A stretch of 64,000 nt of DNA from Xenophilus sp. Marseille-Q4582 (lineage in GTDB: Bacteria; Pseudomonadota; Gammaproteobacteria; Burkholderiales; Burkholderiaceae_C), in contig NZ_CAKAKO010000004.1 in the NCBI RefSeq assembly GCF_916700565.1, positions 372,001 to 436,000 of the forward strand, written 5' to 3'. This document shows, in pieces, positions 15,134-59,197 of this stretch. Position numbers and translations under genes: made by a program. The stretch's first letter is position 1, and every line of letters starts with the position of its first letter. The notes under the pieces were generated by a model. The model was given only the letters and a program-made list of their open reading frames with translations. It did not search any database and was not told where the DNA came from.

Positions 15134-15221
15134 GGGGAGCGGTTCAGGTGGGGCGCATGGCGGGTCGCGTCGCATCACGGGCGCGGCCGCTTCGCCATCG
15201 CAGGGCCCGAACTGTAGGCAG

Positions 15222-15275
15222 GGGGCTTATGAAAGCAAACGATTGTTTAGTTCGCGCCTTATGCGGATAAGCAAA
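15222..15275 (-). promoter_or_regulatory. Probable cysH promoter/CysB control region
   Basis: The only A+T-rich tract near the cys operon lies 90-140 bp upstream of the cysH start. On the minus strand it reads through ATAAGGCG, GAACTAAACAATCG and TTTCATAAG, with the outer blocks GCTTAT and ATAAGC forming an inverted repeat. CysB sites are A+T-rich and poorly conserved. No clean -35/-10 pair could be fixed, so this is a region call and not a mapped site. Confidence 0.35.
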
Positions 15276-15276
15276 T

Positions 15277-15302
15277 GCGCCAGCATCCATGCGGGCTGGC
15301 GC
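15277..15302 (-). terminator. Possible terminator of the DUF3348-DUF2894 operon
   Basis: An 8-bp perfect stem, GCGCCAGC/GCTGGCGC, with a 10-nt loop, followed on the minus strand by ATTTGCTT, which is only moderately T-rich. It lies 84 bp past the stop of the last operon gene and just before the cysH promoter region. Confidence 0.4.
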
Positions 15303-15385
15303 GGGGTTGCTGGCTGTTTCCGGATAAGGGCGGCGCGATGCGGCTGCGCCCGACGGCGCCGGTGGGCGCGGCCGGAGTTCCGCCC

Positions 15386-16207
15386 TCAGCGTGTGCGGCT
15401 GCTGCGCTTGACGATCAGCTTCTTGGCCGGCGCCTTGCCGCCTTTGCCACCCTTGCCGGCGCTGCGGGCGGGCGCGGCCTCGTCGGGCCGCGCGGACTGC
15501 GCGCGTTCCAGCCACATCAGCGTGTCCGCATAGTCCAGGAAGTGGTTCAGGTAGCCCGGCGAGAGCGCGCGCATGGCGGCCAGGGTCTGGTGCACCAGGT
15601 GCTGTGCGTTGAGCGGACCGGCCTGGTCGGGCACGCGCGCCAGCGACTGGGTGAGGCGGCGCTCGGCGCTCAGGCGGCTCCAGGTGCTGCGGAAGTAGCC
15701 CATGGCCTTGAGGTCCGGCGGGCCGCCCAGGCTGGCCAGCGCCTCGTCGGTGGCCGAGGGGCGGTCGGCGCTCGCCGGCAGCGTGCCGGGGCGCGCCAGC
15801 TGCTCCAGCTGGGCCAGCAGCCCGGCCAGCGCGGTGCGGGGCGTGCGCGCCGCGCGCGCCGGCGCGGCCGATGCCCGGGTTTCGACGCGCGCCGTGCGCG
15901 GCACCGGCCGGGCATCGGCGGCTGCCGGCACCCCGGCCGCCGGCGCGCGCGCGTCGTGCGCCGCGATGAGTTCGGCCAGCCGCGCGTGCAGCCGGTCCCG
16001 CACGGCGCCCCGGCGCGTCTCGGCCTGGCGCGCCAGGGCATGGATGAAGAGGGTGTCGAGCCGGCCCTCGCCGCCCGCCTGCGCGGGCACCGGATGCCGG
16101 CGGCGCCAGTCGGCGAGCAGCTGCGCGAGGGCGTCCGCGTGCTGCGGCGCAGCGCCGTCCGCGGGAAGCGGCTCGTCGCCGTGGGCAGGCGCTGGCGGGG
16201 TGTTCAT
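15386..16207 (-). CDS. DUF2894-type protein, last gene of the motor-like operon
   Basis: 273 residues, hydrophilic, no membrane segment. The N-terminal half is Ala/Arg/Pro-rich and probably helical (ALAQLLADWRRRHP, DTLFIHALARQAETRRG). The conserved-looking C-terminal block (about residues 160-245) contains MGYFRSTWSRLSAERRL, GPLNAQHLVHQTLAAMR and YLNHFLDYADTLMWLE, which match my recollection of the DUF2894 family. The tail is basic and Gly/Lys-rich (GKGGKGGKAPAKK). The start at 16207 overlaps the stop of the OmpA/MotB-like gene (ATGA), so translation is coupled. Function unknown; a cytoplasmic partner of the upstream motor is the simplest inference. The tail could bind nucleic acid. Confidence 0.8.
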   Translation of the reverse strand: MNTPPAPAHGDEPLPADGAAPQHADALAQLLADWRRRHPVPAQAGGEGRLDTLFIHALARQAETRRGAVRDRLHARLAELIAAHDARAPAAGVPAAADARPVPRTARVETRASAAPARAARTPRTALAGLLAQLEQLARPGTLPASADRPSATDEALASLGGPPDLKAMGYFRSTWSRLSAERRLTQSLARVPDQAGPLNAQHLVHQTLAAMRALSPGYLNHFLDYADTLMWLERAQSARPDEAAPARSAGKGGKGGKAPAKKLIVKRSSRTR

Positions 16208-16920
16208 CGCACGGCTTTCTCCGCCCCGGCAGCGCGCGCGCCCGCGGCCGCGGCCGGCACTGGCGCGGTGGCCGGCGTGGCGCCCTGGGAGGGCCGGGGC
16301 ATCGGGGCCATTTCCACGCGGCGGTTGCGCGCGCGGCCTTCGGCGTCGGCATTGGAGGCCACGGCCTGCTGCGCGCCGAAGGCGGCCGCGAACACGTCCT
16401 CGGCCGGCAGGCCCTCGTCGATCAGCGCGCGCGTCACCGTCAGCGCGCGCTGGGCCGACAGCTCCCAGTTGTCCGCGAAGCGGCGCGCGTCCTCGCGCAT
16501 GGGCCGGTCGTCGGTGAAGCCGCTCACCATCAGGATCTCGCGGCGCTCGGCCAGGTAGCGTGCCAGCGGCGCGGCCAGGGTCTTGAGCAGCTGCCGCCCC
16601 TCGGGCTGCAGCTCGGCCGAATTGAAGGCGAAGAGCACGCTGCCGCTGATGCCGATGCGTCCGTCCACCAAGGTCACGCGGCCGCTGGCCAGCGGGCCGG
16701 CCAGCACCTGTTCCAGCGCCTGGCGGCGCTGCGCTTCCTGCTGGCGCTGCTGCACCTCGGTTTGCAGCCTGGCGCTCAGGTCGGCCTGAAGGCCCAGCGC
16801 ATAGACCAGCAGCAGCACGAAGGCGCCCAGCAGCCCGGCCATCAGGTCGCCGAACACGGCCCACACGGGCGCGGTCTGGTCGCCCGTGCCGTCGCCGTCG
16901 AAATCTTCCTCGTGCGTCAT
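16204..16920 (-). CDS. MotB/ZorB-like OmpA-domain membrane protein
   Basis: 238 residues. A short acidic cytoplasmic N-terminus leads into one transmembrane helix (about residues 18-42) containing FGDLMAGLLGAFVLLLVY. Asp25 sits where MotB and ZorB carry the ion-binding Asp of the channel. A short linker helix (about 45-75, Gln/Arg-rich) precedes an OmpA-like peptidoglycan-binding domain (about 95-210) with SVLFAFNSAELQPEG, SGFTDDRP, NWELSAQRAL and ARNRRVEM. The Pro/Ala-rich C-terminus is disordered. It overlaps the upstream MotA-like gene and the downstream DUF2894 gene by ATGA. This is the stator B subunit architecture, not a plain outer-membrane OmpA. Confidence 0.88.
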   Translation of the reverse strand: MTHEEDFDGDGTGDQTAPVWAVFGDLMAGLLGAFVLLLVYALGLQADLSARLQTEVQQRQQEAQRRQALEQVLAGPLASGRVTLVDGRIGISGSVLFAFNSAELQPEGRQLLKTLAAPLARYLAERREILMVSGFTDDRPMREDARRFADNWELSAQRALTVTRALIDEGLPAEDVFAAAFGAQQAVASNADAEGRARNRRVEMAPMPRPSQGATPATAPVPAAAAGARAAGAEKAVR

Positions 16921-19577
16921 GCGCCGGCCTGCACGGCGCGCGCCTGCCGCGAGGCGATCTGCTGCAGGTCCTCGATGATCTGCTTTTGCGACATCACGCT
17001 CAGGTCGATCACCTCGCGCGCCTGCGCCACGTAATAGGCCAGCTGTTCGTCACTGCGCGCCAGGGACGCATCCAGCGCCTCCTCGATGCGCGCGAGCTGC
17101 GCCACCAGCTTCTCGCTGCCCTGGCCGAAGTGCTGCAGCGCGCCGCCGAAGGCTTCGCCCAGGCTCGCGATCTCCACCGTGCCGGCCTGCAGCTGCGCCG
17201 CGGCGTCCTGCAGGTGGCCGGCCTGCGCCTGCACCTGTTCGCCGAAGCGCGCGCCCACGCGCTCCATCAGCTGGGCCGAGGTGCTGACCAGCGCGTCGAT
17301 GGCGCCGCGCTGTTCGGTGCTCGCGTGGTTCACGGCGTCGAGCAGCGTGGAGAGGGTGTCGAGGATGCGCGTGCGCTCTTCCAGCATGGCGTTGTCGCGC
17401 ACCATGCTGTCCGACAGCTTCTGGCGCAGCTCGGCCACCACGTCGGCGGCGGCGCGCGGCGCTTCGGCCGCGGCCTGCACCAGCTGGCCGATCTGTTCGA
17501 TGGTGCTGCGCGCATGGGCCTCGCTCTGGGCCGTGATCTCGCGCGCGGTGGCGGCCAGGGTGTCGCAGATCTGCGCTTGGCGCGCGGCGTTCTCGGCGCC
17601 GGCCTGCGCCCATTGCTGCTGCAGGCTGTCGCGCATCTGCGCCAGCGAAGCGGTCCAGGCCGCGAGGCGCTGCGCGTCCTGATCGGCGGCCTGGGCCCGG
17701 TCTTGCGCCTGCGCCTGCTGCAGGCTGTGCAGCAGGGCGGCGCCCTGCTGGCCGAAGCCCTCGCTGGCCGCCTGCAAGGCGCTGCGGGTCTGTTCGCCGA
17801 GCTGCGCGCCTGCTTCGGTCTGGCGGGCCAGCGCCTGGTCCCACTGCGCCGCGACCCGGGCCACGGCGCCTTCCAGCCGCGCGCCCACGCCTTCGACCAG
17901 GGCCGTGGCACCTTGCTCGAAGCGCTGCGTCAGGGCATCGAAGCGCACGCTCGCGGCTGCCAGCGCGGCCTCGGTGCGTTCGCCCATCGCCGCGCTGCTC
18001 TGCGCGTGCTGCGCCAGCGCCTGCTCCCACTGCTGCGCCACGGCCGCGACCGAGGCCTGCAGGCGCGTGTCCACGCCCTCGAAGAGCTGGCCGGCCTGCG
18101 CGCCGAACTGCTGCGCCACGGCCTCGAAGCGCTGCGAGGCGGCTTCCAGCGTGGCCCCGCTGCGCTGCTGCAGCGCCTCGCTCTGGCGGGCCTGTTCGGC
18201 CAGCGCGCCTTGCCACTGTCCGGCCAGTTGGCCGGTGAGCTTGTGCAGTTGCGCATCGACGCCATCGACCAGTTGCTGCGTGCCGGCGCCGAACTGCTGC
18301 GCCACGGCATCGAAGCGTGCCGCGGCGGCTTCCAGCGCGGCCTGCGCCTGGCCGCTCAGGGCCTCGCCCTGGCGCTGCTGCAGCGCGAGCGCGTCCTGCC
18401 ACTGGCGGCTTTGGCGCTCGGCGCTCGCGTCCAGCCTGGCCTGCAGCGCATCGATCAGCGTGGCATGGCGTTCGGCCTGCTGCTGCGCGGCTTGCGCGTG
18501 GGTGTGCTGCAGCGACTGCGACAGCGCCTCGGTGCTGCGCTGGTGCTCGGCCAGCGCCGCCTGCCAGCTCTGCGCGACGGCGGCGCTGGTGGCCTCGAAG
18601 CGGCCGCCCAGGCGGTCGAGCTGTTCGTGCACGCGCGCCGCCAGCGCCTGCTGCAGCTGCCCGCTTTCCTGCGCCAGGCCGGCCAGCGTGGCCTGCACCA
18701 CGGGCTGCAGCGCTTCGGCCGCCACGCGGGCGCTGTGGTCCAGGCTCTTTTGCAGCGACTGGTCCACCGACGCGGCCAGCGCGCGGTAGGTGTTCTGCGC
18801 TTCCTCATGGAAGCGCGACTGGCCGCTGCCCAGGCGCTCGTTGAGCGTTTCCTGCTGGCGCGCGAGCGTCTGCATCAGCGCCTGCACCTGCTCGACCAGC
18901 GCGGGCATGGCGCCGGCCTGCTGCTGCAGCAAGGCCAGCGCGGCTTCCTGCTGGCGCGCGGGCGAGAAGGCGCGCAGCGTGGTGGCGGCCTGCGCGTCGA
19001 GCTGCTGCACGGCCTGTGCGCGCTCCCGCCGCAGCAGGGCCGCGAGCAGCCCCAGCATGGCCGAGGCCGCGACCCCCGCCACCGAGGTGCCGAACGCCAG
19101 CCCCAGCCCCTGCACCGGCGCCACCAGCGACTGGCGGATGCTGTCGATGTTCTGCGCCGCCCCCAGCGCGCTGCCCGTGCCCTGCAAGGTGACCACCATG
19201 CCGATGAAGGTGCCCAGCATGCCCAGCAGCACCAGCAGGCCCGACAGGTAGGGCGCCAGCGCCGGGCCGGGCAGGGCCGCACGTTCGCCTTCCACGCGGC
19301 GGCGCGCGGCGGCGCGCAGCGACGCGGGGAGCTGGCGCAGCCAGTCGTCCAGTGCGGCCGGCGGCGCGGCGGCGCCCGCCAGCGCGTCCAGCGCGGCCTG
19401 GAGCGACGCCGTGGCCGTCCGGAAGCGCCACAGTTCGGCCACGCCGATGACGTAGAAGGCGGCGATGAGCAGCGTCATCGCCAGCGCGAGCGGGTTGGCG
19501 CCGAGGTAGCCCGCACCCACCCAGCCCACGGCCACGAGGCCGGCGAGGAAGATGGCGAGATGGAGGAGTCGAGTCAT
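16917..19577 (-). CDS. MotA/ZorA-like membrane protein with long coiled-coil tail (DUF802)
   Basis: 886 residues. Four hydrophobic segments: about 5-24, 30-50, 110-132 (LSGLLVLLGMLGTFIGMVV) and 152-183 (APVQGLGLAFGTSVAGVAAS), the last two resembling the TM3-TM4 pair of the MotA/TolQ/ExbB fold. The remaining 700 residues are Ala/Gln-rich and strongly helical, a predicted long cytoplasmic coiled coil. Within it three near-identical 62-residue repeats begin at 421, 483 and 545. The C-terminus (residues 840-880) has a conserved-looking QLAYYVAQAREVIDLSVMSQKQ. ZorA of Zorya also combines a motor base with a long tail. I recall this family as DUF802. Coupled by ATGA to the genes on both sides. Confidence 0.85.
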   Translation of the reverse strand: MTRLLHLAIFLAGLVAVGWVGAGYLGANPLALAMTLLIAAFYVIGVAELWRFRTATASLQAALDALAGAAAPPAALDDWLRQLPASLRAAARRRVEGERAALPGPALAPYLSGLLVLLGMLGTFIGMVVTLQGTGSALGAAQNIDSIRQSLVAPVQGLGLAFGTSVAGVAASAMLGLLAALLRRERAQAVQQLDAQAATTLRAFSPARQQEAALALLQQQAGAMPALVEQVQALMQTLARQQETLNERLGSGQSRFHEEAQNTYRALAASVDQSLQKSLDHSARVAAEALQPVVQATLAGLAQESGQLQQALAARVHEQLDRLGGRFEATSAAVAQSWQAALAEHQRSTEALSQSLQHTHAQAAQQQAERHATLIDALQARLDASAERQSRQWQDALALQQRQGEALSGQAQAALEAAAARFDAVAQQFGAGTQQLVDGVDAQLHKLTGQLAGQWQGALAEQARQSEALQQRSGATLEAASQRFEAVAQQFGAQAGQLFEGVDTRLQASVAAVAQQWEQALAQHAQSSAAMGERTEAALAAASVRFDALTQRFEQGATALVEGVGARLEGAVARVAAQWDQALARQTEAGAQLGEQTRSALQAASEGFGQQGAALLHSLQQAQAQDRAQAADQDAQRLAAWTASLAQMRDSLQQQWAQAGAENAARQAQICDTLAATAREITAQSEAHARSTIEQIGQLVQAAAEAPRAAADVVAELRQKLSDSMVRDNAMLEERTRILDTLSTLLDAVNHASTEQRGAIDALVSTSAQLMERVGARFGEQVQAQAGHLQDAAAQLQAGTVEIASLGEAFGGALQHFGQGSEKLVAQLARIEEALDASLARSDEQLAYYVAQAREVIDLSVMSQKQIIEDLQQIASRQARAVQAGA
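17760..18317 (-). repeat. Three tandem 186-bp coding repeats in the DUF802 tail
   Basis: The coding segments for residues 421-482, 483-544 and 545-606 are direct repeats with a period of 62 codons. Each begins RF(D/E)A(V/L) and continues with a Val/Phe-Glu/Asp-Gly-Val motif about 18 residues later and a Q-W core after about 35. A fourth, partial copy begins near residue 607 (EGFGQQGAALL). The constant period fits a coiled-coil rod that has grown by internal duplication. Confidence 0.85.
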
Positions 19578-20344
19578 GGGTTCGGTTCTTCTTGGGGCGC
19601 CGCGTCGGCACGGGCACCGTTGTCACTGCCATCGAGGGCCGCCAGCAGCCCGTCGATGGGCCGCCACCGGAATTCCAGCTCGGCACGCAGCAGGTGCTGC
19701 ATGTCCTGCACGAAGCGGCGCACCCAGGGCGGTTCGTCGGCGCCGGCTGGCACCGGCGGCGCGCCCGCCGGGTGGGCGTCTTCGGCCTGCTGGAGCTTTT
19801 CGTAGTGCTTTTCGAGCAGGCCCGGCACGCCGGCCAGCCATTGCCGCTCCTGCAGTGCCAGCACGCGTTCCATCACCTGGTCCACGGCGGCGAGCTTCGC
19901 GCCTTCGGGCGACGCCGCCGCCAGCACCTGGCGCAGCTGCGCGCGCAGCGGGGCGATCGCGTTGTCGAAGGACTGCTGCCGAGTCTGGTAGCGGCGGCGC
20001 CAGGTGCCGAAGTCGGGCACCGGCGGCGGCAGCGGCACGCCGTGCAGCGTGGGCTGGCGCCCGCGCCGCACCGGTGGCAGCGCCTCGTCGGCGATCTCGC
20101 GTTCCAGCTGCGCATGCACGCGCGCGGCATGGGCCGCGTCGGCGCGCCAGACGCCGTCTTCCATCGGCTGCACCGCGCCCGCCGCGCCCAGCGCCGCCGA
20201 CAACGGAATGGCCTCGGCCCAGCCGATCCACTGACCGAGCTGTTCCGTGAAGACTTGAGGGGATTCGGCGGCATCGACCTGCGTGAGCCGGGCGAGCAAG
20301 CGCACGAGCGTCGAGCCGGTGATCGCCGTGCGCTGAGACACCAT
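19574..20344 (-). CDS. DUF3348-type protein, first gene of the motor-like operon
   Basis: 256 residues, soluble. It begins MVSQRTAITGSTLVRLLARLT and includes QLGQWIGWAEAIPLSAALG, which match what I recall of the DUF3348 family. A central helical region has FDNAIAPLRAQLRQVLAAAS, and near the C-terminus is PPWVRRFVQDMQHLLRAELEFRWRPI. I start it at 20344, not 20386, because the shorter form gives the family N-terminus. It is the promoter-proximal gene of four linked by ATGA overlaps; 203 bp separate it from the divergent NTF2-like gene. No enzymatic motif is visible. Function unknown. Confidence 0.82.
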   Translation of the reverse strand: MVSQRTAITGSTLVRLLARLTQVDAAESPQVFTEQLGQWIGWAEAIPLSAALGAAGAVQPMEDGVWRADAAHAARVHAQLEREIADEALPPVRRGRQPTLHGVPLPPPVPDFGTWRRRYQTRQQSFDNAIAPLRAQLRQVLAAASPEGAKLAAVDQVMERVLALQERQWLAGVPGLLEKHYEKLQQAEDAHPAGAPPVPAGADEPPWVRRFVQDMQHLLRAELEFRWRPIDGLLAALDGSDNGARADAAPQEEPNP

Positions 20345-20547
20345 GCGGCCAGATCGAAAAACCCGGCAGTCTACACCGCAGGGCATGTAACAAATAAGCG
20401 CGTGCTCACGCGTCGCGCAGCGCCCGTGAAAGGATTCACGGGGCCCAGTCGCGCACTGGACTGCCCCGGCCGTGCGCGTCGCGGGCTTGGGCTACCGTGC
20501 CGCTGCGGCTTCCCCATCCATCCATCCCCTTTCGGAGAGAGACACGC

Positions 20548-50109: not shown

Positions 50110-50879
50110 TGGCAATGGCGCGGGTTGCCGGGGAATGCCCGGTGATTCACTTCCGCTTCTTCCCACGTTCTGCCGGGCTTGGCTAGCGCCTTGGCGGCGT
50201 CCTCCAGCGCCCGCACGCTGGCGTCCGCACCCTCGGCCTCCAACACGTTGCCGGACTCCCATGTCGTCAGGCCCATGTTGGGGCGGCGGCTGTCGGCGCG
50301 CTCGGCGATCAGTTCGGCGGCGGTCTTGCCAGTGACGGCGAATGCAGTTTGTTCTGGATGAAACGGAAGAATTGGGTGGTTTCCGGCAGTGTGGGGGAGT
50401 AGTCCGCCGCTATCGAAATATCTGGCGCACGCGCAGGTACATCCGGCGTTCACTGGTGCGGATGCGTTCGAGCAGTTCGTCGAAGCGGTCGGGCACGGCA
50501 GAACCGGCCACGGGCGGGTTCTTCAGGCGCTCGTCATCCAGCGTGAAGCCCTTGACCAAATACTCGGTCAGGCGCTCCGTGGCCCAGCGGCGGAACTGCG
50601 TGCCGCGCGGCGAGCGCACCCGGTAGCCGACCGCCAGAATGGCCTCCAGGCTGTAGTAGGCCACCCGGTAGTTCTTGCCGTCGGCGGCAGTTGTCAACCA
50701 TTGGTTGATAACTGCCTCTGGCTGCAATTCGCCCTCGGCGAAGATCGATTTCAGGTGCTTGGCGATGTTCTGCTTGCTGGTCAGGAACAGCTCGGCCATG
50801 CCTGCCTGCGGCAGCCACAGCGTGTCAGCCACGCGTAGAGCAGGAACTCGCCGGGCAATGGTTGAAGTTGGTCAGTCAT
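50110..50879 (-). pseudogene. RhuM-family (virulence RhuM-like) gene, frameshifted
   Basis: Starts MTDQLQPLPGEFLLYA at 50879, overlapping the TOTE stop (ATGA). Next comes ADTLWLPQAGMAELFLTSKQNI and EGELQPEAVINQW, then SLEAILAVGYRVRSPRGTQFRRWATERLTEYLVKG, all in another frame: a deletion joins LLYA to ADTLW. Around 50408 one base is missing before AADYSPTLPETTQFFRFIQNKL, and near 50345 another before FAVTGKTAAELIAERAD and RRPNMGLTTWES. The C-terminus fades near 50110. RhuM proteins are small proteins of mobile islands, some linked to toxin-antitoxin or phage-defence loci. At least three lesions make this a clear pseudogene. Confidence 0.85.
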
Positions 50880-52391
50880 ATCTTCCCCTCGATTCGATAC
50901 CCCATCGCCCGGTAGCCGCGCTGGCGCTTGTCCCACATCCGCAGCAGGGCTGGATGCCCGGTGTCCACGAAGTCGACGATCCGCACATCGGTCTTGCTGG
51001 CGTGCTCCCGGTGCAGGCGACCCGCGTACTGCTGGAGCGTGCCTCTCCACGACACGGGCATCGCCAGCACCAGCGTGTCCAGCGGTGGATGGTCGAAACC
51101 CTCGCCGACGAGCTTGCCGGTGGCCAGCAACACGCGCGGCGCGTCGGGCGGCAGGGCATCGAGCGCCGCGATCAGCACGGTGCGTTGCTTCTTCGACATC
51201 CGCCCGTGCAACACGAACGGCTCCGGAATTTCGTCGGCCAGAGCGGCCCGGATGGCATCGATGTGCTCGGTGCGTTCGGTCAATGCCAGCACCTTGCGGC
51301 CTTGCCGGAAGGCACCGATGACCGCGCGGGCGATGGCACCAGCTCGCGCCGGGGCCTGGACGAGATACCGAAACACGTCCTGAATACCCGCGTCTGTCGG
51401 CAAATCGATAGTCGATTCGACGAACTGCGGTGTCACCGCCAGATCGTGCGGCGCTTCGGCAGGCTGCGCCGCCTTGTGCCGGATCGGCCCGCACTGCATG
51501 AAGATGATGGGCTGCTGGCCGTCGCGGCGGATCGGCGTCGCCGTCAGGCCGAGCACGTATTTCGCCTTCGCGTGCCGCAGGATGGCATCGAAGGACGCCG
51601 CGCCGATGTGGTGGCATTCGTCCACGATCACCTGACCGTAGCTTTCGACCAGCGGATCGACCTCGCCTTGACGCGAGAGGGACTGCATCACGGCGATGTC
51701 GATCTTGCCGGTGGGCTTGGACTTGCCGCCGCCGATGACGCCGACCACACCCTTGCCTGCGCCCAGGAATGCGGCGAGGCGTTCCTGCCATTGCTTGAGC
51801 AGCTCGGTGCGATGCACCAGCACCAAGGTGTTCACGCCGCGCCGGGCGATCATCGCTGCCGCCGTCACCGTCTTGCCGAAGGCCGTCGGCGCGCACAGCA
51901 CGCCGGCATCGTGTTTCAGCATCGCCGCAACGGCGCCTTCCTGATCCGGGCGTAAGCTGCCGACGAAATCGCCAGCGATGGGCTCTCCGGCGTGGCGTTC
52001 GTCGTGCAGGTCGAGGCGAATGCCGTTGTCCGCCAGCAGTTCGGAGGCCGCATCGAAGCAACCGCGCGGCAGGGCGATGTGCTGCGGGTAGTTGTTGGCG
52101 CAGCCGATCACGCGAGGTTTGTCCCACACCGACATCCGCATTGCCTGCGCCCGGTAGAACTCGGGATTCTGGAAGGCGGCCAGCCGGATCAGGCGGTTCG
52201 CCAGCGCCTGCGGCAGTTGCGCCTTCTCGAAATAGACCTGATTGGCCAGCGTCACGGTCAAGGCCGAAGGCATATCGCCCGCCAGCCGCCCGTCAGGCGC
52301 GCTGTGCCGCTTCCACGGCGCGGCCAAATCCTCGTCGTCGATGAAGGTCACGTCCAGCGGATGCACGCCGCCCGTTGCCCGCAGGATGGCT
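50876..52391 (-). pseudogene. TOTE-type conflict protein, 3' part (helicase), cut off by IS
   Basis: Intact frame of about 505 codons up to the IS junction. It begins AILRATGGVHPLDVTF, a linker seen after TOTE primase domains, then a superfamily II helicase: Q-motif-like GSLRPDQEGAV, Walker A APTAFGKT, DECHH (DEAH variant), GLTATPIRRDG, LHGRMSKKQR and the C-terminal QYAGRLHREHASKT. The 5' half, with the primase domain, lies on the other side of the IS at 53220-54078. In TOTE systems the archaeo-eukaryotic primase fused to a restriction-type helicase is thought to act in genome conflict. Without its start this part may still be made from an internal GTG at 52366. Confidence 0.88.
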
Positions 52392-53219
52392 AGGGCGTGT
52401 TAACACAAACTGCGAAGTCCATCGGCCACCAGCACAAAGCTGAGGAAGCCGAGGAACATCACGTCGAGCTTCTCGAATCGGGAGAAGATGCGTCGATAAC
52501 CCTTGAGCCGCCTGAACAGACGCTCCACTTCGTTGCGGCGTTTGTACATAGCCCGGTCGTACTCCCATGGATCCAGCCTCTTCCTTGAGGGTGGAACGAC
52601 GGGAATGAAACCCAAGTCCAGCGCCAGTTGGCGCGTCTCGTTGCCCTCGTAGGCGCGATCCATGAGCAAGTGCACGGGTCTGCTGGTCTTTCCCAGACTT
52701 TCGATCAGGCGTCGACCTGCAGGCGCATCGTGCGCCTGACCTGGTGACAAACAGAATGTCACGGCCGTTCGAGCATCCGCGGCAACCATAGGAATCTTGG
52801 TGTTCCATCCGCCTCGAGACTTGCCGATGGATTGCGGCCCGTTTTTTTTAAAGCGCCAGCGCCATCGGGATGCACTTTGATGCTGGTGCTGTCGAGCGAG
52901 ACTGCCTCAATCTTGATGCGAATGACCTGCTCGCGCTGTAGCTCTTCAAACATCTTGTCCAGCACGCCAGCCTTGGTCCAGCGGCGCATGCGCGTGTAGA
53001 TGGTGTGCCAGTTTCCAAACCGCTTGGGCAATCCACGCCACTTGCAGCCGTGCTCGGCAACATACAACATGGCGTTGACCACTTGCAAATTGGTCAGGCT
53101 GACATTGCCGCGCTGCAGAGGCAGGCAATGCTCAATGCGCGAGAACTGTTCAGGGGTGATTTCCATACTCGCAGTTTCTTGGAAAACTGCCAGTCTGGAA
53201 ATTAGTGTTAAGACGCCCT
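52392..53219 (-). mobile_element. IS5-family insertion sequence (IS427-like), 828 bp
   Basis: Imperfect terminal inverted repeats: AGGGCGTGTTAACACAAA at the left and AGGGCGTCTTAACACTAA at the right end, flanked by the 4-bp direct repeat GGCT (52388-52391 and 53220-53223). Length and the two-frame transposase fit the IS427 group of the IS5 family. It interrupts the TOTE gene. Confidence 0.92.
52400..53166 (-). CDS. IS5-family transposase (two overlapping frames)
   Basis: First frame starts at 53166 (MEITPEQFSRIEHCLPLQRG), runs through CKWRGLPKRFGNWHTIYTRM and the first catalytic Asp in SLDSTSIKVHPDG, and closes past an A-run. The second frame carries GKSRGGWNTKIP, MVAADARTAVTF, the second Asp (LLMDRAYEGN) and the Glu (VERLFRRLKGYRRIFSRFEK), ending at 52400. 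The frames meet at an (A)8 slippery run (about 52845-52855, minus strand GCTTTAAAAAAAACGG), which fits programmed frameshifting as in the IS427 group. The DDE triad is complete, so the element may be active. Confidence 0.88.
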
Positions 53220-54078
53220 GGCTCGATGTCGTGGGCAGGCATCGACACGATGGATGCGAGAAATGCCCACTGATCGGGATGCGGTCGCAGGTCAGCATCG
53301 ACAAACACGCTGAACCCGTCCTCACGCGGCTTCTTCTGCAAGGGCAAGGCGATCAGGTTGCCGAAACCGCCCTTGGGCATCGTGTCCTGATTCGGGAACA
53401 ACCGATCGTAGGAAGTCAGCTTCAGTTGCCGGGTGCGCGTGCAGGTGTGGCTGATGATGGCCGTGCCCAGACGACGGGCGTCGCGCGCCGATACCGCACC
53501 GGCGAAGAAAATCCAGGCGTGTGCACCTTGACCGGAACGGGAAATCTCCAGCGCCGCCGGTGCGCCCAGTTCATCGCAGGACTGGACGAAGGCGCGGGCG
53601 TCGTCTCGCCATTCGGCCTCGTCGAAATCGACGGCGAGGAAATGGCAGGTGTCGCCGTCCAGCAAGGGATAGACGCCGACCGTGTGGTCTCCGGCCAGAT
53701 GGCCGTAGATCACACCATCGGACAGGGGGATCAACAGGCGGTTGCTGCAATCGCGCACTTGATGCGCGGCTTCTCGCAAACGCCAGCGCGCCATTCGTTG
53801 GCACAAGCAGGTGCGTAGCCGGACTTGCCGCTGGTCTTGCCTTCCCATCGGATGGGGTACACATCCGTGCGGCCGCGAAACAGCTTGCGGAACAGCGCGA
53901 CCTTTTCGTCGGTCGTGAGGCGTGATGGTTCGGCGACTGGCTGCGGAACGGGTTCTTGCGGCAATCGCCATGCGATACCGTGCGCATCGAGTAAGGCAGC
54001 CAGACGGGCGTTTTCGGCGCGCACAGAAGCCAATTCATCGGCGCCCTTGCCCATTTCAACTCCACAGGTACCAGTCAC
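53220..54078 (-). pseudogene. TOTE-type conflict protein, 5' part (primase), frameshifted
   Basis: The start at 54078 overlaps the stop of the upstream gene (ATGA). An N-terminal coiled coil (ELASVRAENARLAALLDAHG) leads to LTTDEKVALFRKLFRGRTDVYP, the GKTSGKSGYAPACANEW block and EKPRIKC. Here a 1-nt deletion (about 53748) shifts the frame; the continuation CSNRLLIPLSDGVIYGHL, HFLAVDFDEAEWRDDAR (primase acidic motif), ALEISRSGQGAHAWIFF and YDRLFPNQDTMPKGG, then FGNLIALPLQ, is in the next frame up to the IS at 53219. These are TOTE archaeo-eukaryotic primase features. Frameshift and IS both inactivate it. Confidence 0.88.

Positions 54079-59121: not shown

Positions 59122-59197
<76 letters not shown>

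Follow-up and report, generated by a model that had tools for sequence, protein, structure and literature searches.

The window analysed here is a stretch of 64,000 nucleotides from Xenophilus sp. Marseille-Q4582 (NCBI RefSeq assembly GCF_916700565.1, contig NZ_CAKAKO010000004.1, positions 372,001 to 436,000). At positions 15386-20344 it carries an operon of four overlapping genes on the minus strand, encoding a DUF3348 protein, the membrane protein ZorA, its partner ZorB and a DUF2894 protein (Table 1). A preliminary description of this DNA had proposed such a layout, with three ATGA overlaps, and a Zorya- or flagellar-stator-like motor. Coordinates and sequence confirmed the former, and the motor reading was borne out by PADLOC models of Zorya type III together with matches of ZorA and ZorB profiles to the Zorya structure 8VVN.

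Table 1. Coordinates of the four genes and their features within the window
Feature	Position	Strand	Evidence
DUF3348 gene, 256 aa	19574..20344	-	Pfam DUF3348 2.8e-63; PADLOC ZorG3 2e-71
zorA, 886 aa, MotA/ExbB-like membrane base and long DUF802 tail	16917..19577	-	PADLOC ZorA3 E=0, 1042.7 bits
zorB, 238 aa, N-terminal helix with Asp25 and OmpA-like C-terminal domain	16204..16920	-	PADLOC ZorB3 3.7e-109; Pfam OmpA 3e-20
DUF2894 gene, 273 aa	15386..16207	-	Pfam DUF2894 9.2e-42; PADLOC ZorF3 6.4e-51
ATGA overlap, DUF3348 gene/zorA	19574..19577	-	sequence
ATGA overlap, zorA/zorB	16917..16920	-	sequence
ATGA overlap, zorB/DUF2894 gene	16204..16207	-	sequence
ZorA motor part, aa 1-210, four transmembrane-like helices, invariant Thr123 (GTF) and Ser165 (TS)	18948..19577	-	hydropathy, 58-sequence alignment, alignment to 8vvn_C
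Codon of ZorB Asp25, in FGDLMAGLL	16846..16848	-	motif in relatives; F(G/A)DLM in 58/58 DUF3348-found loci with zorB
Four consecutive in-register 62-aa stretches in ZorA tail, aa 397-644	17646..18389	-	autocorrelation
Distal tip motif of ZorA tail, aa 841-859, RSDEQLAYYVAQAREVIDL	17001..17057	-	41-tip alignment

The zor operon and its Zorya type III affiliation

The best PADLOC match of each of the four proteins was a Zorya type III model (E 0 to 6.4e-51). Judged by these matches, the gene set is Zorya type III, a system already described, and the window holds a well-formed copy of it rather than a new kind of machine. According to the available parts of the paper by Payne et al. (PMC8565338), type III was defined in 2021 in a survey that found 6,401 flanked gene pairs, and the Stenotrophomonas nitritireducens type III, cloned in Escherichia coli BL21-AI, was one of three new systems that each lowered plaque formation by one or more phages. 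The idea of DUF3348 and DUF2894 as novel partners replacing ZorC, ZorD or ZorE is therefore outdated; both have borne the names ZorF and ZorG since that definition. The two labels are swapped between sources: Payne et al. call DUF3348 ZorF and DUF2894 ZorG in their text, and PADLOC-DB has the reverse. In the same parts of their paper, these authors view the pair as regulators of ZorAB and cite a proton-channel model. Type III also appears, with their naming and its distribution, in the available text of Mariano et al. 2025 (PMC11890865), where the structures are those of types I and II. Among the papers listed in literature searches on type III and its families there was no mechanistic study of this type, and among those listed for the Zorya tail tip or C-terminal tip none dealt with the subject.

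As in other type III systems, all four components are co-located, and no difference of kind was found. Within the type, the DUF3348 protein of the window is 31-49% identical to 58 of the 59 other aligned DUF3348 proteins and 77% identical to that of locus L033. Type I (ZorABCD; PDB 8VVN) shares the MotA/MotB-like motor, the Asp and Ser/Thr positions, the OmpA-type domain and the long tail (PMC11890865, available parts), whereas the window operon has neither ZorC nor ZorD and its tail-tip profile gave no match to the 8VVN ZorA chain at E<=10. The motor and tail are likewise shared with type II (ZorABE; same source), but ZorE is missing from the operon. Only type III partners were matched beside ZorAB, and the adjoining genes encode a PAPS-reductase (cysH) and a SnoaL-like protein. 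With the flagellar stator MotA/MotB the operon shares a ZorB OmpA domain that matches MotB chains; it differs in its very long ZorA tail, in a ZorA profile that found no MotA chain at E<=0.1, and in surroundings where none of six neighbours scanned (one without any match) belonged to a flagellar family.

The co-occurrence of the four genes was examined in two sets of loci. One was found through DUF3348 and comprised 60 loci outside the genus and 12 within it (72 in all; DUF3348 matches in G071, G150, G209, G220, G351, G425 and G483 were left out), and the other was found through ZorB and comprised the best 80 of 446 plus the window (81). All four genes stood in the same order and on the same strand in 58 of the 60 wider and all 12 same-genus DUF3348-found loci (70/72), and the two exceptions, L170 and L223, reached a contig end before zorB; the linkage expected in the preliminary description was thus recovered. 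The ZorB-found set was complete in 74 of 81 loci, and five of the other seven (L094, L098, L125, L136 and L155) were cut by contig ends. The remaining two were not: L097 has neither DUF3348 nor zorA, and L153 (Alcaligenaceae bacterium SAGV5) has zorA, zorB and zorF with no DUF3348 match. The ATGA overlaps are not universal. In the gene pairs measured among the ZorB-found loci, the 4-base overlap was more frequent than any other arrangement at the first junction; at the second and third it occurred alongside several others. An in-frame ATG upstream, at 20386, would give an alternative DUF3348 protein of 270 aa. A scan for sigma-70-type promoters found none; five terminator-like sites were returned.

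Across the window and 133 loci, ZorB was the most alike (mean pairwise identity 0.71), followed by the ZorA N-terminus (0.60), DUF3348 (0.44) and DUF2894 (0.40). The motor is conserved, and its partners change faster; the distances of the components are correlated (Spearman 0.63-0.79).

Motor, tail tip and soluble partners

The four membrane passages and long-tailed base ascribed earlier to ZorA were supported by hydropathy, which placed transmembrane-like stretches at aa 4-22, 29-47, 113-131 and 164-182 and a tail of ~700 residues beyond the last of them. Thr123 and Ser165 were invariant in 58/58 sequences, and their GTF and TS motifs align with the Thr and Ser of type I ZorA (8vvn_C); by analogy, both would face the ZorB aspartate. 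Conservation of that aspartate had been set beforehand as a test, and it held in every DUF3348-found locus with zorB. The ZorB-found loci, window included, had FGDLM in 80 of 81 cases and FADLM in one (L138), in a set selected partly by the FGDLM-type motif itself. By analogy with D24 and D21 of types I and II, Asp25 is the probable ion-binding position. The OmpA-type domain of ZorB is predicted to bind peptidoglycan.

When a profile of 58 ZorA N-termini was compared with the PDB, ZorA of 8VVN (6e-6) was the sole match at E<=0.1, and no flagellar MotA chain appeared at this threshold; the window ZorA sequence alone had no PDB match. The best matches of a ZorB profile were MotB chains; weaker ones were 8vvn_B (2.2e-5) and 8qyd_F (4.4e-4), the latter from 8QYD, which we take to be a Zorya structure entry. 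The comparison proposed in the preliminary description for the DUF802 and OmpA-domain proteins therefore supports ZorA3, ZorB3 and 8VVN, but not membership of the A subunit in the MotA family.

The ZorA tail, in which Pfam recognises DUF802 (1.3e-26), varies along its length. In 56 DUF3348-found relatives and the window, mean ZorA identity was 0.57 over aa 1-210, 0.40 over aa 211-330 and 0.25 at the tail midpoint, and it rose to 0.47 at 180-60 residues from the end and 0.59 over the last 60 residues. The middle of the tail drifts while its tip stays as conserved as the motor. In an alignment of 41 of the 59 available tips, the motif RSDEQLxYYVAQAR was nearly or fully invariant except at x; R45, S46, Q49, L50, Y52, V54-R58 and L63 (numbering of the aligned segment) were invariant in 41/41. 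The tip profile had no convincing match in the PDB, type I ZorA included (best E 0.059). We infer that the tip is the docking site of the soluble partners, and a conserved tip on a drifting tail offers a specific place to seek communication between motor and partners.

The tail of the window has an autocorrelation of 0.36 at 62 residues (best of 60 shuffles, -0.04) and 0.15 at 124. In the 144 relatives whose tails reached 250 residues or more, mean autocorrelation peaked at 22, 11, 18, 7, 33 and 55 residues, which suggests a coiled coil in which many hendecads are interspersed with heptads, and periodicity exceeded 20 shuffles in 108/144. A fixed 62-aa step in tail length was rejected because the best periods differ between lineages (55, 69, 84, 87, 73, 62 and others). 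Lengths fell between 572 and 1,103 aa in 143 of 145 cases. The outliers L174 (222 aa) and L135 (473 aa) may be broken frames, and the 1,103 aa of L024 and L109, which overlap zorB deeply, may reflect a frameshift.

Pfam, NCBIfam and PDB profile searches recognised no enzyme domain in the DUF3348 or DUF2894 proteins, and the profile searches found no PDB relatives of either (best E 0.04 and 0.087). Twelve DUF3348 residues were invariant over 60 sequences (W39, L48, Q123, R138, L151, A152, L177, L219, A221, E222, R226 and L233), with D155 and E166 kept at >=90%. The invariant residues of DUF2894 over 61 sequences were only Gly, Pro and Leu (G197, P198, L199, P217 and L230), with D228 kept at >=90%. 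No His or Lys occurred among the invariant or nearly invariant columns of either alignment. The idea that the two families are paralogues was unsupported (hhalign probability 0.6%).

Distribution, copy number and genomic sites

Of 200 family genomes, 56 carried a single ZorB3 match (E<=1e-40), as did 16 of 300 genomes from the order; DUF3348 was found in 56/200 and 18/300, including three weak matches without ZorB3 (G209, G220 and G351). Both occurred together in 55 family genomes, one genome holding each alone, and in 16 order genomes, two more having weak DUF3348 matches only. In all searches at E<=1e-20 or below, ZorB3 gave one match per genome. If copies were independent, a Poisson baseline would predict two or more copies in ~8.7 of the 56 family genomes, and none had them (P 8e-5); because the genomes are related, this pattern is only suggestive. 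For the order, the same baseline predicts 0.4 and is uninformative. Within the window genus, DUF3348 was found in 13/15 genomes, and the remaining two hold ZorB3. Absence of the operon from these two (G005 and G014) was considered and rejected, as zor genes were found in both. G014 has zorA-zorB-zorF on a contig that ends inside the operon. In G005 (L250, G005:C67:14000-24986, the same record as L097), zorB and a partial zorF are ~95% and ~85% identical in DNA to L029 and are preceded by unrelated, presumably purL-like sequence; neither zorG nor zorA was matched in the vicinity. This may reflect a break in the operon or a join made in assembly.

The operon occupies four sites in the genus: beside cysH (the window genome and G002), beside a radical-SAM gene (six genomes), at an efflux/kinase site (four genomes) and at a site found in G003 alone; the copies of G014 and G005 also match the efflux/kinase site. 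The window DUF3348 protein is 82% identical to that of G002 and 37-41% identical to those of eleven other genus loci. We considered and rejected a core gene at a fixed genus locus: cysH is present in 15/15 genomes (84-89% identical in the 14 others), and the other 13 keep cysH, cysD and cysN without the operon (19-19.5 kb examined). A clean empty site was not shown, since these relatives carry other genes upstream of cysH, which look sulphite-reductase-like on inspection of the sequence. The radical-SAM gene also persists in 15/15 genomes; a TfoX gene adjoins it in five of seven genomes examined, lies ~3 kb away in one and is absent from one. The 13 genus copies occupy four places, matching the four sites, in a 104-row tree whose starred branches force at least three changes. 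This is a quick tree, and a test of the 13 copies as one clade was borderline (p-AU, from the approximately unbiased test, 0.049). Grouping of loci by one flank within 4 kb gave four groups for the 13 genus copies, 46 for 58 non-genus DUF3348-found loci and 16 for 41 Variovorax-titled loci; the criterion was 45% identity across 90 residues, so diverged flanks inflate these counts. The operon moves or is replaced.

Carriage by phages or small plasmids was rejected on the record counts: none of 50,697 phage records matched (E<=1e-20), and the best 25 of the 27 matching plasmid records (among 72,556; E<=1e-40) are replicons of 0.37-3.5 Mb. E. coli genomes gave no megablast match. The 104 nearest open reading frames (ORFs) of 53 loci, one gene per side and with GC-rich genes favoured over AT-rich ones, included four PADLOC families with one member each (HEC-05 twice, BrxL and mad1). 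Among the best 25 of the 139 Pfam families matched, no integrase or transposase occurred, and tRNAs were found in 3/58 loci. On the question of core gene or defence island raised in the preliminary description, a fixed core position is contradicted by the varying sites, and a defence-island setting was not seen in the nearest-neighbour ORFs, among which AT-rich genes were disfavoured.

The preliminary description had also offered housekeeping in Burkholderiales. Under such an alternative, ZorAB would be an envelope motor of some Burkholderiales, comparable with Tol/Ton, and the protection of E. coli from phage would be a by-product of over-expression. The presence of ZorB in 15/15 genus genomes, a single ZorB3 match per genome, neighbours of mostly metabolic, signalling and regulatory families (best 25 of 139) and an operon GC content of 0.709 versus 0.67 in the flanks (53 loci) all fit it. 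Nevertheless, it is disfavoured because 144/200 family and 284/300 order genomes lack ZorB3 at E<=1e-40 and the sites are many, and the division of the genus copies over four flank groups and four tree places, like the flank groups of the Variovorax-titled loci, also speaks against it; we regard it as unlikely. If the pattern of one copy at many sites, away from defence genes, holds in wider surroundings, screens that depend on defence islands would be prone to overlook systems of this kind. This pattern and the tail-tip motif are what is new here; the system itself was already known, and as an ordinary member of type III it is of modest interest.

Proposed action of the motor and alternatives

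We consider it probable, with considerable room for doubt, that the operon encodes an ion-driven Zorya type III motor which signals through its tail tip to ZorF and ZorG as an anti-phage defence. Homology to those of types I and II suggests an inner-membrane motor of five ZorA and two ZorB subunits; for those types the 5:2 motor is described and the ion aspartate, peptidoglycan binding and tail matter (PMC11890865, available parts). The OmpA domain of ZorB would grip the peptidoglycan, ions would pass at ZorB Asp25 and a ring of ZorA Ser/Thr residues, and the ZorA tails, gathered in a bundle, would move in the cytoplasm. Phage injection may disturb the envelope and so release the motor, whose movement would be relayed along the tail to the conserved tip. 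The tip would dock or switch the soluble DUF3348 and DUF2894 proteins, which could then bind phage on entry and block it, or bring in a factor of the host. The stoichiometry, the movement, the trigger, the docking at the tip and a non-nuclease role of both partners are all inferred.

Several observations weigh against this proposal. The 886-aa ZorA scores only 0.0088 (16.2 bits) with MotA_ExbB versus a Pfam cut-off of 22.9, and NCBIfam ZorA types 1, 2 and 4 lie far under their cut-offs. Few scanned neighbours match defence models, and ZorB is present throughout the window genus, which also suits housekeeping. The few conserved acidic residues in the partners may point to a hidden enzyme. In Burkholderia cenocepacia under phage, the available parts of one report (PMC12584637) limit significant transcription changes to the leading one or two genes of Zorya I and Zorya III.

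If one soluble protein were a nuclease or DNA binder of unrecognised fold, type III would work like types I and II. The Lys/Arg-rich C-terminus of the DUF2894 protein agrees with this, as do E222, D155 and E166 of DUF3348 and D228 of DUF2894. Yet the alignments hold no invariant or nearly invariant His or Lys, the invariant residues of DUF2894 are confined to Gly, Pro and Leu, no Pfam enzyme family was found and the PDB profile matches were poor, and such a nuclease seems improbable. That an opened ZorAB is itself the weapon, an ion leak that depolarises the infected cell, as in the type of proton-channel model cited by Payne et al., with the soluble proteins only as gates, would fit the absence of a recognised nuclease from the operon and the regulator role proposed by Payne et al. 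(PMC8565338, available parts), but the soluble protein of type II is an effector, the nickase ZorE (PMC11890865, available parts), and we give this little credence.

The defence reading also admits an extension, which we offer as a long shot. Type III would be a nuclease-free Zorya with a mechanical or capture output, its tail a freely lengthening spacer that joins a fixed motor to a fixed tip, and this tip would pass motion on to two partners without enzyme activity. Because ZorA subunits of different variants would mix, no cell could hold two systems, and variants would replace each other, at ever new sites and one per genome.

A few further observations concern the surroundings of the operon. 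In G198 (L185:689-5161) it is flanked by two identical inverted 102-bp copies that hold tRNA-Gly(ccc), a possible trace of how it moves. The stretch at 15178-15386, between the DUF2894 gene and cysH, resembles by eye the stretch upstream of cysH in L076 and is perhaps the cys promoter, the zor operon stopping just short of it. A PADLOC scan of ten further ORFs of the window matched only a helicase and a primase, ~30 kb away. Positions 50410-53971 hold a RhuM-like fragment, a ResIII/DEAD helicase, a DDE transposase fragment and an AEP-TOTE primase (6.5e-74), which may be remnants of a TOTE conflict system or another mobile island; the region of lower GC content at third codon positions reaches ~59186, with a tRNA-Ala at 59122.

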